This document shows positions 9,989 through 18,026 of a stretch of DNA of 64,000 bases, piece by piece. The notes beneath the pieces were generated by a model. The model was not told where the DNA came from and searched no databases. It worked only from the letters and a program-made list of their open reading frames with translations. The number at the start of each line of letters is the position of its first letter. Within the stretch, counting starts at the first letter, position 1. Source of the DNA: Natrinema sp. CBA1119 (GTDB lineage Archaea > Halobacteriota > Halobacteria > Halobacteriales > Natrialbaceae). The stretch spans positions 434,001 to 498,000 of the forward strand of contig NZ_PDBS01000001.1 of the NCBI RefSeq assembly GCF_002572525.1, written 5' to 3'. Position numbers and translations under genes: made by a program.

Positions 9989-12139
9989 TCAGTCGTCCCC
10001 GGCCGCCGGATCCGCGGTTTCGCCGAGAGGTTCGATATCGACGTCGATCTCCGCGGCGGCGGCTTTGTATTCGGGAATCTTCGAGCGCTCGTCGAGCACG
10101 TGGTTCGTGAGCTTGTTCGCCGAGGCGGCCGCGAAGTGCGGCGTCGTCCAGACGACCCCCTCTTTGGTGTCTTCTGTCACGTGGGCCTCGAGCGTGATCT
10201 CGCCCCGTCTCGAGTGCAGACGGACGTACTCGCCGTCCTCGATGCCGTAGCGCTCGGCGTCGGTCGGATGCACGTCGACGAAGTTCTCCGGAGTCTGCTT
10301 GTTGAGCGTCGGCGATCGCGTGCTCATCGTCCCGGTGTTGTAGTGTTCCTCGAGGCGCGCGGTCGTGAGGATCAGCGGGTACTCGTCGTCGGGCGTCTCG
10401 GCCGGCGGCTGGTGGGCGACACCCTCGATCCGGCCGAGGCCGCTCTCGGTGTCGAACTCGTGTTCGTAGAGGAACGGATCCCCCTCGTCACCGGGCTCGT
10501 AGCACGGCCAGTGCAGTCCCTCCTCGCCCAGCAGATCGTAGGTCATCCCGTGATAGCTCGGACAGACCTGCCGGAGCTCCTCGAAGACCGCCTCGGGGTC
10601 GTCGAAGCCGAACAGGTCGTCGCCATCATCGAACAGCCGCGTCCCGACCTCGCTTACGATCTCGAGGTCGTGTTTCGTGTTCTCGTGGACCTTCCCGACG
10701 CCGCGCATCCGCTGGACGCGCCGGTCAGTGTTGGTGACGGTGCCGCCGCGTTCGGCCCAGGTAGTGGCGGGGAGGATGACGTCGGCGTACTCCGCGGTTT
10801 CGGTCGGGAAGATGTCTTGGACGACCGTGAACTCGAGGTCTTCGAGCCGGTCGGCGACGTTGTTAGCGTCGGGTTCGCTCATCACGGGGTTCTCGCCCAT
10901 GACGTAGAGGCCCTTGATCGAGTCACCGGCCTCGTAGGAGATTTCGACGTTCGTCAGCCCGGGCTCGGCCGGAATCTCGAAGCCCCAGACCTCCTCGACG
11001 GACTCGCGGGCCTCGTCGTCGTCGACTAGCTGGTAGCCCGGCAGGACGTTCGGCATCGCACCGACGTCGCAGGTCCCCTGGACGTTGTTCTGGCCGCGAA
11101 GCGGGTTGACGCCCGTGCCGGGTCGCCCGAGGTTACCCGTGATCAGCGCGAGATTGATCTCGTTTTGCACGTTATCGACGCCGCAAGCGTGCTGGCTCAT
11201 CCCCATCCCGGTGAAAATGGCCGCGTTGTCGGCTTCGGCGTACTTCTCGGCCGCGAGTTCGATCGCCTCGAGGTCGACGCCACACTCCTCTGCCGCTGCT
11301 TGCTTGTCGAAATCCTCGAGGGTCTCTTTCAGGTGGTCGAACCCCTCGGTGCGCTCCTCGATGAACTCCTCGTCGATCCAACCGTCCTCGGGGTGGTCCT
11401 CGTGGTGCTCGAGGATCTTCGTGAGGACGATATTGAGAAGCGGGATGTCAGTGCCGGGATTCAACTGGAGGTGCTGGTGACGGTCGGTGTCGTCGATCTG
11501 GAACGATCGCGTCGTCTTGTTCGCGTGCGGGTCGACCTGAATGACGGTCGCCCCCTCGAGGACGGCCTGCCGGAAGTACTGGCTGTTGGCGATCGGATGT
11601 TGCTCGCCGGGGTTCGCCCCCTGAATCCAGAACACGTCGGCCTCCTCGCGGAGGTCGCGCATGCTGTTGGTCATCGCGCCCGCGCCCAGACTCGTCCGGA
11701 GCGCCCAGACCGTCGAGGCGTGACACATCCGCGTGCAGTTGTCGACGTTGTTGGTGCCATACCGGCGAGCCAGCTTCTGGAGGAGGTAGTTCTCCTCGTT
11801 CATCACCTTCGAGGAGCCGAAAAAGCCCATCGCGTCCGGGCCGTACTCGTCGCGAATCCGCTCGAGTTCGCCGACGATGTACTCGTAGGCCTCCTCCCAG
11901 GAGGCCTCGCGGAACTCCCCCTCTTCTTTGATCAGCGGGTCGGTGAGTCGGTCCTCGTGGTCGACCACCTCCGTCGCCGCGCCGCCTTTAATGCAGATGC
12001 GCCCCTCGTTAACCGGGGCGTCACCCCACGGCATGAACTGGACGTCGCCGGGCTCCTCGCCGGGCTGTACCATGATTCCACACCCGACGCCACAGTACGG
12101 ACAGATCGTCTTGACTGGCTCTTGCTGATCACTGGACAT
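9989..12139 (-). CDS. fdhF: Molybdenum formate dehydrogenase, catalytic subunit
   Basis: A 716-residue molybdopterin oxidoreductase. The N-terminal 4Fe-4S motif is C-P-Y-C-G-V-G-C followed by G-R-I-C-I-K-G-G. The molybdenum ligand region reads N-C-T-R-M-C-H-A-S-T, so the ligand is cysteine, not selenocysteine. The next segments (D-V-F-W-I-Q-G-A-N-P, V-D-P-H-A-N-K-T, G-M-G-M-S-Q-H, N-N-V-Q-G-T-C-D-V-G) are characteristic of the FdhF/FdhA family, and the MGD-binding C-terminal domain is complete. It should oxidise formate to CO2. No Tat signal is present, so it is probably cytoplasmic. No beta or diaphorase subunit gene is adjacent. I start at the ATG at 12139; a 12-codon upstream extension lacks support. 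Confidence 0.87.
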   Translation of the reverse strand: MSSDQQEPVKTICPYCGVGCGIMVQPGEEPGDVQFMPWGDAPVNEGRICIKGGAATEVVDHEDRLTDPLIKEEGEFREASWEEAYEYIVGELERIRDEYGPDAMGFFGSSKVMNEENYLLQKLARRYGTNNVDNCTRMCHASTVWALRTSLGAGAMTNSMRDLREEADVFWIQGANPGEQHPIANSQYFRQAVLEGATVIQVDPHANKTTRSFQIDDTDRHQHLQLNPGTDIPLLNIVLTKILEHHEDHPEDGWIDEEFIEERTEGFDHLKETLEDFDKQAAAEECGVDLEAIELAAEKYAEADNAAIFTGMGMSQHACGVDNVQNEINLALITGNLGRPGTGVNPLRGQNNVQGTCDVGAMPNVLPGYQLVDDDEARESVEEVWGFEIPAEPGLTNVEISYEAGDSIKGLYVMGENPVMSEPDANNVADRLEDLEFTVVQDIFPTETAEYADVILPATTWAERGGTVTNTDRRVQRMRGVGKVHENTKHDLEIVSEVGTRLFDDGDDLFGFDDPEAVFEELRQVCPSYHGMTYDLLGEEGLHWPCYEPGDEGDPFLYEHEFDTESGLGRIEGVAHQPPAETPDDEYPLILTTARLEEHYNTGTMSTRSPTLNKQTPENFVDVHPTDAERYGIEDGEYVRLHSRRGEITLEAHVTEDTKEGVVWTTPHFAAASANKLTNHVLDERSKIPEYKAAAAEIDVDIEPLGETADPAAGDD

Positions 12140-12298
12140 TGGATAGCCTCCAGGTGTCGCACCCGTTAGACGCATCTCACTATCCGAGTGTGCATGAGGC
12201 TTTCTACCATGCAGGCGGTAAGTTGGAGCGAGCGACGGATCAACCGGGAGTACTCGACGGGGAAACGCTAACGGTCACGCGTGCGAAACCGTCACGCG

Positions 12299-12871
12299 AT
12301 GGAGCTCACGCGGTCGCTCGTGGAATCCCAGGCGCGCGAGTATCGAGAGCGAGAGCCCCTGTACGCCGTCGAGGAAGAGAACCTCGAGACGCTCCCGGCA
12401 GCGTTCGAGTCGGGCGAGTACGGCCGGCGGGACGCGGCCTGGGTCGTCAGGTGGTACTACCGGCGATTTCTCGGCGGCTACCCCGACGCCGAGCGACGGG
12501 ACGCAGAAGATCGATTCTGGAGCAACGACTTCGAAACCGTCAGAGACGCCATCGCCGACGCCGTCGATGCTATCGACGCAGGCGGCTCGGACGATGCCGC
12601 CGCGGGGATCGACTCGCTGACCGCCCTCGAGGCCGTCGACGTCCCCGTCGCCTCGGCGTTTTGCATGTTTATCGACCCAGCGAAGTACGTCGTCGTCGGT
12701 CCTCGCGAGTGGTCAACGCTCCGGGACGCGGACGAACTCTCTCACTCGTATCCGGATCCGCCGTCGGTTCCGCAGTACGAGACCTACCTCGAGCGCTGTC
12801 GCTCGCTCGCCGACCGCTTCGACTGCGATCTGTGGACGCTGTATCGGGCGCTCTGGCGGCTCTCGGACTGA
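12299..12871 (+). CDS. Conserved-type protein, possible HhH-GPD-like fold
   Basis: A 190-residue soluble acidic protein. The pattern L-E-A-V-D-V-P-V-A-S-A-F, then M-F-I-D-P-A-K-Y-V-V-V and R-E-W-S-T-L, recalls the helix-hairpin-helix core and following helix of DNA-glycosylase-like folds. I do not see the catalytic Lys/Asp pair needed for a glycosylase, so I make no enzymatic call. The start is the ATG at 12299. The mobA-like gene begins 68 bases downstream on the same strand, so they may share a transcript. The fold suggestion is weak. Confidence 0.6.
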   Translation: MELTRSLVESQAREYREREPLYAVEEENLETLPAAFESGEYGRRDAAWVVRWYYRRFLGGYPDAERRDAEDRFWSNDFETVRDAIADAVDAIDAGGSDDAAAGIDSLTALEAVDVPVASAFCMFIDPAKYVVVGPREWSTLRDADELSHSYPDPPSVPQYETYLERCRSLADRFDCDLWTLYRALWRLSD

Positions 12872-12939
12872 TCGACACCGTTCGATTCGACCCGGACCGC
12901 GACCTGACCCTTTTGCCATCGCTGGACGAACGGTCGACT

Positions 12940-13584
12940 ATGTCCCTCGAGAGCGGACGAGACGAGCGCACGGCTATCATCCTCGCGGGCGGTCACTCGA
13001 CCCGCTTCGGCGAGGCGGACAAGGCCGTCGCCGACCTCGCCGGGACGCCGATGATCCGCCGCGTCGTCGATCGCCTCGACCCCGTGGTCGACGAAATCGT
13101 CGTCAACTGCCGGGACGAGCAGGTGACGGCGATCCGCTCGGTCCTCGAGGGGGGACCGGAGTTCTCGTTCGCGGTCGACCCGATCCCCGACCGCGGGCCA
13201 ATGGCGGGCATCATGACTGGGCTTCGCGACGCGAGCGGAGAGTACGCCGCCGTCGTCGCCTGTGACATGCCCTTCGTCGAGCCAGCCCTCGTCGACCACC
13301 TCTTCGACCGGGCGGCCGGCCACGAGGCCGCGGTGCCGCGGCTCGAGGACCAGTGGTTTCAGACCACCCAGGCCGTCTATCGCGCCGGGCCGATGGCCGA
13401 AGCCTGCGAGCGCGCCCTCGAGCGCGACGAGCGCAGAGTCGTCGAGCCCCTGCTGGACCTCGACTACATCGTCGTCGACGAGGACGAGGTACGCGAGTAC
13501 GCGCCGCTCGAGACGTTCGAGAACGTCAACACACGCGAGGAGTTCGAGGCGGCGCTCGAGCGACTCAAGGAGGACGGCGCGTGA
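12940..13584 (+). CDS. mobA: Molybdenum cofactor guanylyltransferase
   Basis: A 214-residue nucleotidyltransferase. It has the signature A-I-I-L-A-G-G-H-S-T-R-F-G with the conserved Lys shortly after (A-D-K-A-V), the metal-binding D-P-I-P-D-R-G-P-M-A-G-I region, and A-C-D-M-P-F with the catalytic Asp. The family attaches GMP to molybdopterin to make the MGD cofactor used by formate dehydrogenase and other DMSO-reductase-family enzymes. Its nearness to fdhF, starting 800 bases away on the opposite strand, fits that job. The upstream frame runs through the preceding gene in another phase, so I take the ATG at 12940. Confidence 0.85.
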   Translation: MSLESGRDERTAIILAGGHSTRFGEADKAVADLAGTPMIRRVVDRLDPVVDEIVVNCRDEQVTAIRSVLEGGPEFSFAVDPIPDRGPMAGIMTGLRDASGEYAAVVACDMPFVEPALVDHLFDRAAGHEAAVPRLEDQWFQTTQAVYRAGPMAEACERALERDERRVVEPLLDLDYIVVDEDEVREYAPLETFENVNTREEFEAALERLKEDGA

Positions 13585-13772: not shown

Positions 13773-14195
13773 CTACTCGACCTGAACGGTCCCGAGCATC
13801 CCGGAACTCTCGTGGGGGATACAGTAGTAGTGGTACGTGCCGGGCACCTCGAACGTCCGTTCGTACTCGGAAGTCGGTTCGATGAGACCCGCTGTCAGGG
13901 TATTTCTCGCGGCGCGCTCGGACTCGAAGCCGCCGCTCGCGAAGTACGTGGCACCGTCCGGAAGCTCGGCTTCGGAAGCGGTGACCGTGTGATCGACGTC
14001 GCTCGTGTTCTTCCAGGTCACGGTCCGTCCGGGTGCTATCGTCGTCGCCTCCGGATCGAACCCGAACCCGCCGGTCATCGTGACGGTCCGATCGGTCGAC
14101 GACCGACTCTGCAGACACCCGGCGGTCCCGATCGTCGCGAGTGCGGTACCGCCGAGACGGAGGATCGCCCGCCGATCAGCGCGGTTGAATGGCAT
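13773..14195 (-). CDS. Halocyanin-type blue copper lipoprotein
   Basis: A 140-residue Tat lipoprotein. It has R-A-D-R-R-A-I-L-R then the lipobox T-A-G-C with the anchoring Cys at 27. A single cupredoxin domain follows with all type 1 copper ligands: His69 (V-D-H-T-V), Cys125 and His128 (Y-Y-C-I-P-H-E), and Met133. Halocyanins carry electrons at the outer membrane face. It is the last gene of the multicopper oxidase/ZIP operon, 27 bases after the ZIP stop, so it is probably an electron partner or copper-handling component of the oxidase. Confidence 0.88.
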   Translation of the reverse strand: MPFNRADRRAILRLGGTALATIGTAGCLQSRSSTDRTVTMTGGFGFDPEATTIAPGRTVTWKNTSDVDHTVTASEAELPDGATYFASGGFESERAARNTLTAGLIEPTSEYERTFEVPGTYHYYCIPHESSGMLGTVQVE

Positions 14196-14222
14196 GAATA
14201 CGAGTATTGAAGCGTGGCCGTC

Positions 14223-15470
14223 TCAGATCGCCACGAAGATATCGGTCGCGTACATCACGGCGAAGCCGATCAGGAAGGCCAGCAGATTCGTCGCACTGCC
14301 GACGCGTCCACCCGCGTCACGAACCATCCGTGTGATCTCCCAGACGACCTGCAGGATCGCACCAACACCGATCGCGAGGAAGAACGCACCGACCGTCGGC
14401 GAGTAGGCGAGGCTCCCGATCCATCCGCCGAGGATGACCGGTGCGCCGGCGAGGAGACCGAGCGCCACGAAGTGCCACCAGGCCGGGCGCTCGTCACGCG
14501 CGACCGGCGCAACGACCGCCGGACCTTCCGTCACGTTGTGGAGCATGAACCCGATGACGAGGAACGCGCCGAGCGAGACGCGACCGAGCGCGAACGAACT
14601 CCCGATGGCGAGTCCCTCCGCGAGGTTGTGGAGGCCGATGCCAAGCGCCACCAGATACGCGACCCAGAGACCGCCGCCCGCTCGACCGTCGCCGGCGGCG
14701 CGTCCCTCCCGCCACGAACTGATCGATTGCACGAGTAACAGTGCGCCGAGAACCCCGGAGACGACCAGGAGGTTGCCCTCGTAAGCCCCCGGGATTCGCT
14801 CGGCGAGTTCGAACGCCTCGAATCCGGCGTCGAACGCGAGGAACGCGAGCACACCGGTGGCAAACAGGAGAACGGCGTGCAAGGTCCGGTCGCTCATCGT
14901 CCGGATGTATGGGAACCAGAGCATGCCGAGCGCGACGGGAATCACCCCGACGAACAGTCCGATAAGCGCCAGCGTCCACAGGACGTCAGCGCCGAAGCCG
15001 GGACTCTGCTGGGGCGCTTCGATACCGTGACTGACCGTCGCGCCGTCCGAGAGCACGAGATCGACCTCGAGGTCCCAGCCCGGATTCCAGTGATACGGAA
15101 CGACGACGCGCGCGCTTTCTCGCGGCTCGAGCGTCCGATCACCGCCGGCGCCCTCGACGCGGAAGTTCCAGTAGGCCTCGTCGACGAGGACCTGCGAGAT
15201 CGTTACTTCCTCCGGGCCGTTGTTCGTGACGTGCAAGACGACGGTGTCATCGCTCGGCAGCGTGGAGTGAGTGACCGTCACGTCGGGGAGCGGTTCACCA
15301 CCCTGTATCCCTGCGAGGGGAGAGGTGAACACGAACGCGCCCAGGACGAGGACGAGCAATACGATCGGGAGCACCGCAGTGACCCATCGCGGGACGCCGA
15401 GCGGCTGCCCGACCTCGGTTTCGGCCGGTAGGCCTCCGTCCGTCGTGGTATCCCGCCGTTCGTCCGCCAT
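14223..15470 (-). CDS. ZIP-family divalent metal transporter with extra N-terminal extracellular domain
   Basis: A 415-residue membrane protein. The C-terminal half has the ZIP transport signatures H-N-L-A-E-G-L-A-I-G and H-N-V-T-E-G in the two metal-binding helices, among about eight membrane segments. Ahead of it is a first membrane helix (about residues 30-50) and a 100-residue beta-rich domain (L-H-V-T-N-N-G-P-E-E-V-T-I-S) that should lie outside the cell. That domain is unlike plain ZIP proteins and could interact with the co-encoded oxidase. ZIP proteins import zinc, iron or manganese. The start codon directly abuts the stop of the oxidase gene, so translation is probably coupled. Confidence 0.82.
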   Translation of the reverse strand: MADERRDTTTDGGLPAETEVGQPLGVPRWVTAVLPIVLLVLVLGAFVFTSPLAGIQGGEPLPDVTVTHSTLPSDDTVVLHVTNNGPEEVTISQVLVDEAYWNFRVEGAGGDRTLEPRESARVVVPYHWNPGWDLEVDLVLSDGATVSHGIEAPQQSPGFGADVLWTLALIGLFVGVIPVALGMLWFPYIRTMSDRTLHAVLLFATGVLAFLAFDAGFEAFELAERIPGAYEGNLLVVSGVLGALLLVQSISSWREGRAAGDGRAGGGLWVAYLVALGIGLHNLAEGLAIGSSFALGRVSLGAFLVIGFMLHNVTEGPAVVAPVARDERPAWWHFVALGLLAGAPVILGGWIGSLAYSPTVGAFFLAIGVGAILQVVWEITRMVRDAGGRVGSATNLLAFLIGFAVMYATDIFVAI

Positions 15471-16730
15471 TTAGACCACCTCGAAGAAGCTCATCCAGCC
15501 GAGTTCGGCGAACTCCGACTGATGAGCGTGGAACATGTACAGCCCCGGCTCGTGATCGGAGTAGTCGAGTTCGATGATACCTCGCTGGGCCTGCGTCTGC
15601 ATGACCGTGTCGACGGTCTGGCGCGTCGGTAGCAACGTCGTCCCGTGGTCGTAGTAATCGAAGAACTGCGAGTGGGTATGGAAAGAGTTGACAAGGTCGA
15701 ACTCCGTCGCGTTCACGAGATACACTCGCTGCCGTTCGTTCTTGTCGATCCGGATGGGGCGTTTCGTCTCGCCAGCCGTCCAGTCGCCGTTCCCGTCGGT
15801 CTCGCCGACGCCGTATGCGAAGGCCCGCGTATTCGCAGCGTAGACCTCGTTTCCGCCGTCGAAGTTGGTATCGAACGAGTTCATCACGATCACCAACTCG
15901 TTGACGGCGTCGTTCTCGGCGTACTCGTGGTTGCGCGTCTTGGCCTCGTCGACCAGATCGTCGACCATCGCGTCGGTGATCTGACTCGGATGGTCCGTCA
16001 CGTAATCGGCAGGGTTCTCCCTGACCCGTTCGGGATCCGGATCGACGATCATCGCGCCGTAAAGGCCACGGTGAATGTGCTCTTTCAACGGCAGCGAGTG
16101 GCAGTGATAGAAGTGCACGCCGGCGGGCTGTGCGATCCACTCGTAGGTGTACGACTCGCCGGTCTCGAGCACGCCGGGTCCGTTCTGGGGAATGCCGTCC
16201 ATTTCGGGGTCGAGATTCTTCAGGTGCGGGTGAATCGTGTGGGCGTGTCGCCCGAAGTTTTCGAACGTGACCCGAATGAGATCACCCTCGACGGCGCGGA
16301 TCGTCGGCCCCGGTACCTGCCCGTTGAACGCCCAGGCTTCGAACTCGATGCCCGGCGCGATCGTAATCGTCGTATCGACTGCGGTGAACTCGAACTCCCG
16401 AACGGTTCGGCCGTTCTCCTCGTAGATTCGTTGTGGGACGGCGTCCTGACCGCTCTCGCCCGTGTTGAACGTTCTCAGGAACTCGTGGGGATCGAAAGTC
16501 GAATCGCGGTACTCGTCGACGGCACCGAACGTCCCGTGTTCGTCCTCGTCGTGGCCGGAATCGGCACCCGCTCGCGTACTCCCGATCCCGACCGCAGCAC
16601 TCCCGGCGACCCCGAGCCCGCCGAGCACCGTTCGTCGGCTGACGTCCGGTTTCTCCCCGACCGCTTCGACGAGTCGTTCCTCAAGCTGTGCTGTAACTTC
16701 AGCTGCGCTGGTATAATCTAGTGATGGCAT
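15471..16730 (-). CDS. Two-domain multicopper oxidase, Tat-exported
   Basis: A 419-residue protein with a Tat motif S-R-R-T-V-L-G-G at residues 31-38. Copper motifs of a laccase-like trinuclear site are visible: H-A-H-T-I-H-P-H (162-169), H-C-H (209-211) with H-I-H-R (218-221), then H-T-H in the second domain and H-A-H (401-403) near the end. Two-domain oxidases of this kind work as trimers with the trinuclear site between domains. The H-C-H pattern and the absence of the type 1 Met after H-I-H-R-G-L-Y-G argue against a NirK nitrite reductase. The substrate is unknown; metal oxidation is suggested only by the linked metal transporter. It is the first gene of the oxidase/ZIP/halocyanin operon. 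Confidence 0.85.
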   Translation of the reverse strand: MPSLDYTSAAEVTAQLEERLVEAVGEKPDVSRRTVLGGLGVAGSAAVGIGSTRAGADSGHDEDEHGTFGAVDEYRDSTFDPHEFLRTFNTGESGQDAVPQRIYEENGRTVREFEFTAVDTTITIAPGIEFEAWAFNGQVPGPTIRAVEGDLIRVTFENFGRHAHTIHPHLKNLDPEMDGIPQNGPGVLETGESYTYEWIAQPAGVHFYHCHSLPLKEHIHRGLYGAMIVDPDPERVRENPADYVTDHPSQITDAMVDDLVDEAKTRNHEYAENDAVNELVIVMNSFDTNFDGGNEVYAANTRAFAYGVGETDGNGDWTAGETKRPIRIDKNERQRVYLVNATEFDLVNSFHTHSQFFDYYDHGTTLLPTRQTVDTVMQTQAQRGIIELDYSDHEPGLYMFHAHQSEFAELGWMSFFEVV

Positions 16731-17276
16731 GGTCTCGATTCCGATCTGGGTACTCGTCCGTTCACGTTCGGGTGTTAGTCGACCCCCTATATGAATTTGA
16801 CGCGTCTAAATTTAGATCATGTCTAATCAAAATATCTAACGAGTCAATCGGTAAACGGGAAGTCGCGGATGCCGTGCCTGACTGGACAGTTCGGTCAATA
16901 TACCGCCACTGGAAGTTTCTTGCGCATTCGTCCCGTGGTAACTGAAAATATTATTCGACCACGGATTCTTCTGGCGACAGTCGCTTCGATCGATGCAACC
17001 GTGGTATCAATCCCTCGTAATTAAATTAGATATGTCTAATTCTTTGGTTCGAACTGGGTTCTCGCTCGACGGCAGGTGGGAAATCAGTATCAATTCGTAC
17101 TCGAATCGGACCTGTCGAAAGACCGGCTCGTCCGTTCCTCGTGAGAGATTCCGTCGTACCCCATTTTCGACCAGAGAACGCGAGTACAGTCGCGAGGAGT
17201 TCGAGAGAGCGCCGAATCGACTCGAGGAAACGAACCGATCCCGTCCTGGGCCTCGGACTGTGACACGAGTCGGGAA
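16731..17276. promoter_or_regulatory. AT-rich upstream region of the multicopper oxidase operon with paired palindromes
   Basis: These 546 bases have no convincing gene; frames here encode Ser/Arg-rich peptides. On the minus strand a TATA-like element (forward coordinates 16789-16796) lies about 60 bases before the oxidase ATG, implying a short leader. Just beyond it are two overlapping palindromes: TCTAAATTTAGA at 16805-16816 and TTAGA-TCATG-TCTAA at 16812-16826. The same half-sites recur at 17024-17041 as AATTAGA-TATG-TCTAATT. The repeated TTAGA/TCTAA architecture suggests a dimeric regulator, possibly metal-responsive given the operon. Confidence 0.6.
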
Positions 17277-18026
17277 CTAGGTCCCGAGGACGTCGATCAC
17301 CGGTTCCTCACCGACCATCCGCGCCAAAACGACTTGCCTCACGGCCGGCGCTCGCTCGAGCAACTCCCGTCCGATGTCCGCTGCGACATCCCGCATCTTG
17401 GCGTCATCGACCTTGTTGAGGAGCGGGACGACCGTCGCTCCGTCCGGAACTCCCTTGTGCCCGCCGCGATCGCTCGCGAGCACTCGAGCGACGTCTTCGG
17501 GCCGGATCACATCGCCGCGATCGAGCCCGGTGATCGCCGCCACTCGCTCCGGCCGGTGGACGTGGTCGGCCGAGAGCGGTTTTCCGACGGCCTGCACGCT
17601 CGCGATCGGGACGACGGTGTCGACGTGTCGGGGAAGTTGCGGTTCGCGCTCGTTCGGTGCCTTGAACTCCCGCGTCCGCGCACCATCGGCCTTGACGAGA
17701 ACGAGATCGGCGACGTCGGCCGTCGCGATGTCGTCGACGACATCGGGATCGTACCCCACGTACCGGTCTTCGCCCTCCCGCTCCGGGACGACGCCGACGG
17801 GCCACGCGTCCGCTCGCTCGAGGGCCGCAACCGGGTCGTCAGTCACGGCGACTTCCTCGACGTGTCGATCGAAGATCGGGATCCGAACCGTCGCCGTCAC
17901 GACCGCTCGCAGGGAGCGATCGCTTGCGGCGCGTTCGGCAAGCGTATAGAGCGTCGTCTTCTTGCCGCCCGCACCGACGACGGCGACGACGCCGGACTCC
18001 GCTCGGAGCGCCTCGAGAACGTCCAT
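17277..18026 (-). CDS. yqeC: YqeC-family putative molybdenum hydroxylase accessory protein
   Basis: A 249-residue P-loop-like protein. It begins with A-V-V-G-A-G-G-K-K-T-T-L, the modified nucleotide-binding motif of YqeC, and continues with T-A-T-V-R-I-P, V-L-V-K-A-D-G-A-R and K-A-P-N-E-R-E-P, all typical of that family. YqeC proteins are found with selenium-dependent or other molybdenum hydroxylase genes and are thought to help maturation; the biochemistry is not settled. No xdhC or hydroxylase gene is next to it, so the client must lie elsewhere. Confidence 0.82.
   Translation of the reverse strand: MDVLEALRAESGVVAVVGAGGKKTTLYTLAERAASDRSLRAVVTATVRIPIFDRHVEEVAVTDDPVAALERADAWPVGVVPEREGEDRYVGYDPDVVDDIATADVADLVLVKADGARTREFKAPNEREPQLPRHVDTVVPIASVQAVGKPLSADHVHRPERVAAITGLDRGDVIRPEDVARVLASDRGGHKGVPDGATVVPLLNKVDDAKMRDVAADIGRELLERAPAVRQVVLARMVGEEPVIDVLGT

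Follow-up and report, generated by a model that had tools for sequence, protein, structure and literature searches.

The stretch of DNA examined here, 64,000 nucleotides from the haloarchaeon Natrinema sp. CBA1119 (C1:434001-498000 of a 5.06-Mb assembly; hereafter the window), carries on its minus strand a compact operon in which a gene for a multicopper oxidase (MCO) is followed by genes for a ZIP transporter and a halocyanin (Table 1). The ATG of the ZIP gene at 15470 directly follows the MCO stop codon, leaving no spacer, and 27 bases (14196-14222) separate the ZIP gene from the halocyanin gene. An earlier reading made from the letters of the window alone (the sequence-only reading) had given this layout exactly to the base and had proposed that the three proteins oxidise a metal outside the cell and move it in, with halocyanin as electron carrier. 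Our own interpretation, which is tentative and held with somewhat less than even confidence, is that the operon encodes an oxidase-coupled metal importer belonging to a manganese (SirR/MntR-type) regulon, with a patchy distribution and probable horizontal movement.

The oxidase matches the Pfam domains Cu-oxidase_3 and Cu-oxidase_2 and carries a twin-arginine (Tat) signal, SRRTVLGG, read off the sequence. It is composed of two cupredoxin domains, with a type 1 (T1) copper cysteine in the first only and no cysteine in the corresponding motif of the second. By analogy with NirK and known MCOs, we take H164, C210, H218 and the axial L223, all in domain 1, to be the T1 ligands and H167, H169, H209, H211, H351, H353, H401 and H403 to be those of the trinuclear (T2/T3) cluster, the latter arranged in the motifs HxH (167/169), HCH (209-211), HxH (351/353) and HAH (401-403). 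Eight trinuclear histidines together with a T1 cysteine confined to domain 1 are the sequence hallmarks of a two-domain oxidase of type C. These eight histidines, H164, C210 and H218 are unchanged in all 20 aligned MCOs of archaeal and bacterial origin, among which the axial T1 position is occupied by Leu or Met. The nearest relatives of solved structure by sequence are PDB 7rab (E 1.6e-104) and 3gdc (E 2.5e-67).

Assignment of the transporter required more than a profile match, as it scores 33.5 bits against the Pfam model PF02535 (Zip), slightly below the gathering cut-off of 35.1, and also falls below the NCBIfam cut-off for ZupT. A sequence search of the PDB returned BbZIP entries as the sole matches at E <= 1, and BbZIP is also the best fold match of the predicted model (Z 21.2 over 238 residues to 8j1m). 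Two HNxxEG metal motifs are present (281-286 and 311-316), and their residues H281, N282, E285, H311, N312 and E315 are unchanged in 48 of 48 ZIPs from MCO-ZIP pairs. The modelled fold and the metal motif outweigh the missed Pfam cut-off and decide for membership of the ZIP family.

The model (mean pLDDT 77) places a membrane helix at 28-49 and a beta domain at about 64-150 ahead of the eight-helix ZIP bundle. This beta domain is modelled with fair confidence (pLDDT about 70-87) and, following the usual ZIP topology, is predicted to be extracellular, in agreement with the extra extracellular domain that the sequence-only reading had noticed. It is Ig-like, and its nearest structural neighbours are archaellum stator FlaF/FlaG domains (VIA-align Z about 9-10.6). 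At least 94% of its positions are present in all 48 aligned pair ZIPs, and it is absent from 17 short ZIP matches, aligning only from residue ~160, that sit in 16 genomes of the 145-genome survey described below; none of these 17 adjoins an MCO ortholog at E <= 1e-100. Our guess is that it serves as an Ig-like docking domain. A copper-binding role (PCuAC or cupredoxin) was also considered for it. Foldseek gives PCuAC rows at E of about 0.01-0.1, but VIA-align ranks FlaF/FlaG first and PCuAC near Z 7 amid many unrelated rows. The domain has no Met and no Cys in the window protein; H80 and H127 occur in 81% and 77% of the 48 sequences, respectively, and are missing from all nine bacterial sequences compared. 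It was rejected as a metal site.

Linkage of the two genes was followed in haloarchaea and on bacterial plasmids. In every one of the 37 haloarchaeal loci fetched after a ZIP-seeded scan, the MCO gene sits immediately upstream of the ZIP gene, with gaps of -4 to +2, and the adjacency is therefore not due to chance. Among 145 surveyed genomes of the order, each at least 90% complete and that of the window included, 21 contain an MCO ortholog (E <= 1e-100), and in each of the 21 a beta-domain ZIP adjoins it on the same strand (the ZIP of G082, split into two overlapping parts of which one contains a stop, was counted once, and a fragment in G042 was excluded). The pair, with the same beta domain, also occurs on bacterial plasmids, where the MCO lies next to the ZIP in 14 of 14 opened loci from four phyla, a non-random set picked by hand from 150 plasmid records. 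The MCO is directly upstream in all 13 annotated loci (two from Arthrobacter and one each from Rubrobacter, Rhodococcus, Pseudosulfitobacter, Sinorhizobium, Shinella, Pelagibacterium, Cytobacillus, Peribacillus, Pseudanabaena, Chroococcidiopsis and Leptolyngbya), and tblastn places it upstream on the fourteenth, an unannotated Sinorhizobium fredii plasmid (L162). The MCO and ZIP distance matrices are correlated over 48 loci (r 0.98, uncorrected for shared ancestry). On a plasmid of Deinococcus sp. KNUC1210, kept outside the count of 14, ZIP and MCO are fused in a single protein (Table 1) whose gene lies in a cluster with genes encoding ArsR, CDF and P-type ATPase proteins; the T1 cysteine, as read by eye from the alignment, is in the second cupredoxin domain and the beta domain is absent, and this fusion therefore looks like an independent coupling. 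From conservation, co-occurrence, congruent divergence and fusion taken together, it is very likely that MCO and ZIP form a functional unit, and the linkage in both groups, the beta domain that tracks the MCO and the Deinococcus fusion all bear out this part of the original proposal.

The distribution of the pair is uneven. Eight other searched species of the genus contain neither MCO nor ZIP at the survey thresholds, and at least 16 haloarchaeal plasmids bear the ZIP; this patchiness within the genus, together with the plasmid copies, suggests that the operon moves horizontally. A single scan of viral contigs for relatives by alignment pattern gave six pattern matches and no relative.

The third gene is less constant. 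Its product belongs to the plastocyanin/azurin family (PF00127, 58.5 bits against a cut-off of 21.2) and falls below the NCBIfam cut-offs for halocyanin (45.7 of 93.8) and plastocyanin (61.7 of 87.85). From its Tat-like signal and its lipobox, AGC, it is predicted to be a lipoprotein on the outer face of the cell, and the copper ligands H69, C125, H128 and M133, placed by family analogy, are unchanged in 12 of 12 aligned sequences. Halocyanin lies directly downstream of the ZIP in 24 of 36 assessable haloarchaeal loci (including L028, where it is apparently broken at 82 aa, and excluding L032, whose contig ends 74 bp past the ZIP), and a Rieske protein identified by Pfam directly follows the ZIP in the Rhodococcus and Chroococcidiopsis loci. 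The proposed triad thus stands for these 24 loci; in the remainder no halocyanin directly follows the ZIP, and its slot is held by Rieske at the two bacterial loci. That halocyanin acts as an electron carrier may be supposed solely from its family and position.

Two palindromic, operator-like sites lie upstream of the operon (Table 1). The perfect one has the strict form TTAGAN4TCTAA (relaxed form TTAGN6CTAA), which did not arise in any of 100 shuffles of the window, and several relatives bear a 15-bp site at the position matching the second copy. Among 40 haloarchaeal loci with sufficient sequence, which are kin and hence do not represent 40 independent events, the upstream palindrome is present in 31 in strict and 38 in relaxed form, with 0.015 and 0.13 loci expected by first-order resampling (L026, whose contig starts inside the MCO, was excluded). 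In 26 of the 40, a DtxR-family gene lies ahead of the MCO, the matches in L011 and L044 being partial. The strict site occurs three times in the genome of the window: at this operon, upstream of an ArsP_2 permease gene and 12 bases ahead of a DtxR/MntR-family gene (L063:5974-6660; C1:3236473-3237159).

Forty genomes of the order contain 61 strict sites, distributed over 34 of them, and 41 of the 61 lie within 300 bp of five families: DtxR-family regulators (15), ZnuA-family binding proteins (11), ArsP_2 (8), short ZIPs (4) and MCOs (4), one site being at two of these. The reversed pattern, used as a control in the same genomes, gave 36 sites, none of them at the five families. As the families were named post hoc on the same 61 sites, the genes at the sites were also clustered in a manner free of that choice, and clusters of 15, 11, 8, 5, 4 and 4 loci were obtained against a largest control cluster of 2. 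The site is therefore common to the genes of DtxR/MntR-type regulators and of ZnuA-type (Mn/Zn) ABC binding proteins of the order. The ArsP_2 permease probably belongs to the same metal regulon, because eight of the 61 sites are at this family and an identical site, TTAGACATCTCTAA, is common to six of these genomes.

Several further genes were observed near such sites. The ArsP_2 permease of the window's genome (C1:1684559-1685782; L062:4560-5783, minus strand) is a ten-helix (10TM) putative "heavy-metal exporter". An arginase-like gene, called by eye (L063:4896-5974), is divergent from the DtxR/MntR-type regulator gene in the same genome with the operator-like site between them; arginases are a family of manganese enzymes. 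The neighbourhood of a regulator in Natronorubrum bangense resembles, by eye, this arginase-gyrA neighbourhood, and there a short ZIP annotated as a hypothetical protein lies directly after the regulator gene (L161:4029-5795). The same short ZIP may be represented by VNG0535C of Halobacterium, described as an unknown membrane protein in a SirR-linked bicluster (PMC1779511). Five similar open reading frames near a site (L069, L081, L084, L092, L093) also cluster and may be overlapping frames.

The regulators themselves were examined at the positions of metal ligands (Asp8 and Glu11 of MntR, Cys102 of DtxR). Of 17 regulators located at the pair or at a site, 16 have Asp at the Asp8 position and none has Cys at the Cys102 position; at the Glu11 position the haloarchaeal ones have Lys. 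Two alphaproteobacterial regulators exceed the NCBIfam MntR cut-off, the only ones of six tested to do so; an MntR gene adjoins the pair in three of the four annotated alphaproteobacterial loci, and a metal-dependent or MntR regulator does so in 6 of the 13 annotated bacterial loci. Deletion of the DtxR homolog sirR in Halobacterium is reported to raise expression of the ABC transporter genes zurA-zurM-ycdH with manganese present (PMC1779511, PMC3600143). Judged from these sequence features, the control of the operon points to manganese through a SirR/MntR-like regulator, and not to copper, with zinc and iron as remaining candidates. Because of the operator-like site, Mn(II) is likewise our best guess for the cargo of the ZIP, with Zn, Fe and Cu as alternatives. 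In Halomarina halobia the regulator linked to the pair (L036:4033-4725) no longer has the customary metal ligands; it may have degenerated or sense metal differently.

A mechanism consistent with these features can be outlined. At low Mn(II), a DtxR/MntR-type repressor would leave the TTAGAN4TCTAA site and the operon would be expressed; the candidate repressor gene is the one located elsewhere in the window's genome, and in most haloarchaeal relatives such a gene adjoins the operon. The MCO would be exported folded through the Tat pathway and could dock at the channel mouth on the Ig-like beta domain of the ZIP, which would import a divalent ion, Mn(II) being the likeliest candidate. In reducing O2 to water, the oxidase would draw its electrons from a reduced metal at the channel mouth, most probably Fe(II) or Cu(I), which would thereby be kept from entering with Mn(II), so that the complex would act as a redox selectivity filter. 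Lipid-anchored halocyanin, or Rieske in some bacteria, would exchange electrons with the MCO, and with Mn(II) as cargo the MCO might alternatively draw its electrons from halocyanin. ZIPs transport divalent ions, so that Mn(II) or Fe(II), once oxidised, would be lost as a substrate; oxidation of the cargo itself is therefore sensible only for Cu(I). The original proposal that the oxidised metal is also the imported one would thus fit literally only for Cu(I) to Cu(II), and regulation points to manganese instead. The broader claim, of a widespread and horizontally spread redox-gated transporter in which an Ig-docked MCO filters Fe(II) or Cu(I) for a Mn(II) ZIP, with a halocyanin or Rieske partner and SirR/MntR-type control in both archaea and bacteria, we consider doubtful.

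A number of observations weigh against a manganese importer of this kind. The haloarchaeal regulators have Lys at the position of the MntR ligand Glu11, and although the MntR model is the best match of the haloarchaeal and actinobacterial regulators, they reach 110.7 to 216.6 of the 350 bits needed. ZnuA-family binding proteins serve zinc as well, and the two ZnuA-type proteins tested have the zinc protein AztC as best NCBIfam match, far under its cut-off. At the window operon there is no adjoining DtxR gene, and the perfect site lies as far as 309 bp ahead of the MCO start codon. Counted raw, the 61 strict sites are fewer than twice the 36 of the reversed pattern, and 20 sites are assigned to none of the five families; the window site is itself among these 20, as its distance exceeds the 300-bp limit, and 11 of the other 19 are in genomes less than 90% complete. 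Docking is a guess from co-occurrence, and the Deinococcus fusion manages without the beta domain. Copper limitation is reported to raise expression of the linked MCO1 and ZIP genes of Nitrososphaera about 2-fold (PMC7785015). Finally, bacterial loci often have genes for ArsR, P-type ATPases, CDF or CopD proteins or copper chaperones close by, and the gene after the ZIP in Shinella is that of a "metal-sensing transcriptional repressor"; because of these neighbours it is possible that the bacterial copies serve Zn/Cd/Cu resistance instead of Mn supply.

Copper acquisition is the first alternative to be weighed, with the MCO oxidising Cu(I) to Cu(II), the ZIP importing Cu(II) and halocyanin acting as copper client or carrier. 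The increase in Nitrososphaera amounts to log2 values of 0.81 and 1.33 for the two genes, and a copper hypothesis is put forward by the authors (PMC7785015); copper uptake has also been proposed for ammonia-oxidising archaea (PMC7819960). Moreover, MCO and halocyanin are both copper proteins, Cu(II) is divalent, so that oxidation would yield a ZIP substrate, and two alphaproteobacterial plasmids have a gene for a PCu(A)C copper chaperone close to the pair. Yet the operator-like site is common to DtxR/MntR-type regulators and ZnuA-type genes, the adjacent regulator is MntR in most of the annotated alphaproteobacterial loci, and no gene named as a copper regulator is present in the three annotated haloarchaeal pair loci that were opened, other haloarchaeal loci having been checked for DtxR only. 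On balance we regard copper acquisition as unlikely.

Equally unlikely, in our judgement, is that the operon is a metal resistance system in which oxidation by the MCO renders Cu(I), Fe(II) or Mn(II) harmless outside the cell while the ZIP-like protein chiefly anchors the MCO in the membrane or works as an exporter. Known ZIPs are mostly importers, and the metal-motif residues of the ZIP are unchanged in all 48 pairs aligned, so transport is probably needed. The haloarchaeal sites group the operon with uptake-type genes, even though the putative exporter ArsP_2 is included. It is the bacterial copies that would suit resistance: they reside on plasmids, some of them conjugative, in the neighbourhood of genes for P-type ATPases, CDF exporters and ArsR regulators, and one copy is on plasmid pSinB, whose modules reportedly have to do with metal resistance (PMC6115938). 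Iron uptake after the manner of yeast Fet3-Ftr1, with the MCO as a ferroxidase handing Fe(III) straight into the ZIP channel, is very unlikely, for although an oxidase beside a permease and DtxR-family control would suit it, ZIPs carry divalent ions, the regulators are without the DtxR/IdeR-type Cys ligand and none of the five identified site families is of siderophore or ferric type (smaller clusters being outside this count).

The operon is flanked in the window by genes of molybdenum-cofactor type. These encode a formate-dehydrogenase-like protein, a MobA-like protein and YqeC (Table 1); beside the MobA-like gene, a 196-aa open reading frame (12281-12871) has no Pfam match at E 0.01.

Table 1. 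Genes and sites of the operon, its flanks in the window, and the fused relative of Deinococcus
Feature	Position	Strand	Remarks
Multicopper oxidase gene	15471-16730	minus	ORF, 419 aa, ATG start
ZIP transporter gene	14223-15470	minus	ORF, 415 aa
Halocyanin gene	13773-14195	minus	ORF, 140 aa
Palindromic operator-like site	17026-17039		TTAGATATGTCTAA; begins 309 bp upstream of MCO start codon
Second palindrome copy	16812-16826		TTAGATCATGTCTAA; 15 bp, 96 bp upstream of MCO start codon
Formate-dehydrogenase-like protein	9989-12175		Flank gene
MobA-like protein	12937-13584		Flank gene
YqeC	17277-18026		Flank gene
ZIP-MCO fusion, Deinococcus sp. KNUC1210 plasmid	L052:5668-7479		Single 603-aa protein, ZIP part N-terminal

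The occurrence of a two-domain oxidase beside a ZIP is a standing question from the genomes of ammonia oxidisers. The same pairing is now seen to span haloarchaea and at least four bacterial phyla; the paired ZIP has a predicted extracellular domain that is missing in its unpaired haloarchaeal cousins, and for haloarchaea and alphaproteobacteria the signs of control point to manganese. The question is directly testable in haloarchaea, for some of which genetics are available; culturable relatives that carry the operon include Haloarcula mannanilytica and Salarchaeum japonicum. In the parts of the open-licence literature covered by our search, we met no account of the haloarchaeal or bacterial operon, of its spread together with the beta domain, of a halocyanin or Rieske third gene or of MntR-type control.

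Among known systems, the closest is that of the ammonia-oxidising archaea, in which the gene for a two-domain MCO1, with T1-T3 copper and an axial Leu at T1, adjoins that for a ZIP permease (PMC7785015, PMC5767755), so the thaumarchaeal pairing that the sequence-only reading had pointed to is correct. The relevant passages propose copper uptake or hydroxylamine oxidation as its role (PMC7785015, PMC5767755, PMC7819960) and describe the MCO1 lineage as confined to thaumarchaeal genomes (PMC7785015). The window pair likewise has its MCO directly beside the ZIP; it differs in the halocyanin that follows, in the DtxR/MntR-type operator-like site that precedes and perhaps in the beta domain of its ZIP. 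With BbZIP and ZupT the window ZIP shares the eight-helix bundle and the HNxxEG of helix 4, whereas helix 5 has QD in BbZIP where the window protein has HN, and the beta domain is an addition. The oxidase shows in alignments the same copper-ligand motifs as the "multicopper oxidase" entries PDB 7rab/7rac and 3gdc, whose names state no function. Yeast Fet3-Ftr1 provides an analogy of working, an extracellular MCO coupled to a permease, as was also drawn in PMC7785015, but its permease is of the Ftr1 family and that of the window is a ZIP by fold and not an Ftr1. Plasmid 1 of the actinomycete Arthrobacter sp. FB24 (ARTH_RS21365-21370) has the same MCO-ZIP order with a 4-base overlap, the same beta domain, a divergent metal-dependent regulator and an MCO 44% identical to that of the window; it is without halocyanin and has a second MCO and a VIT1/CCC1 gene nearby on the opposite strand.

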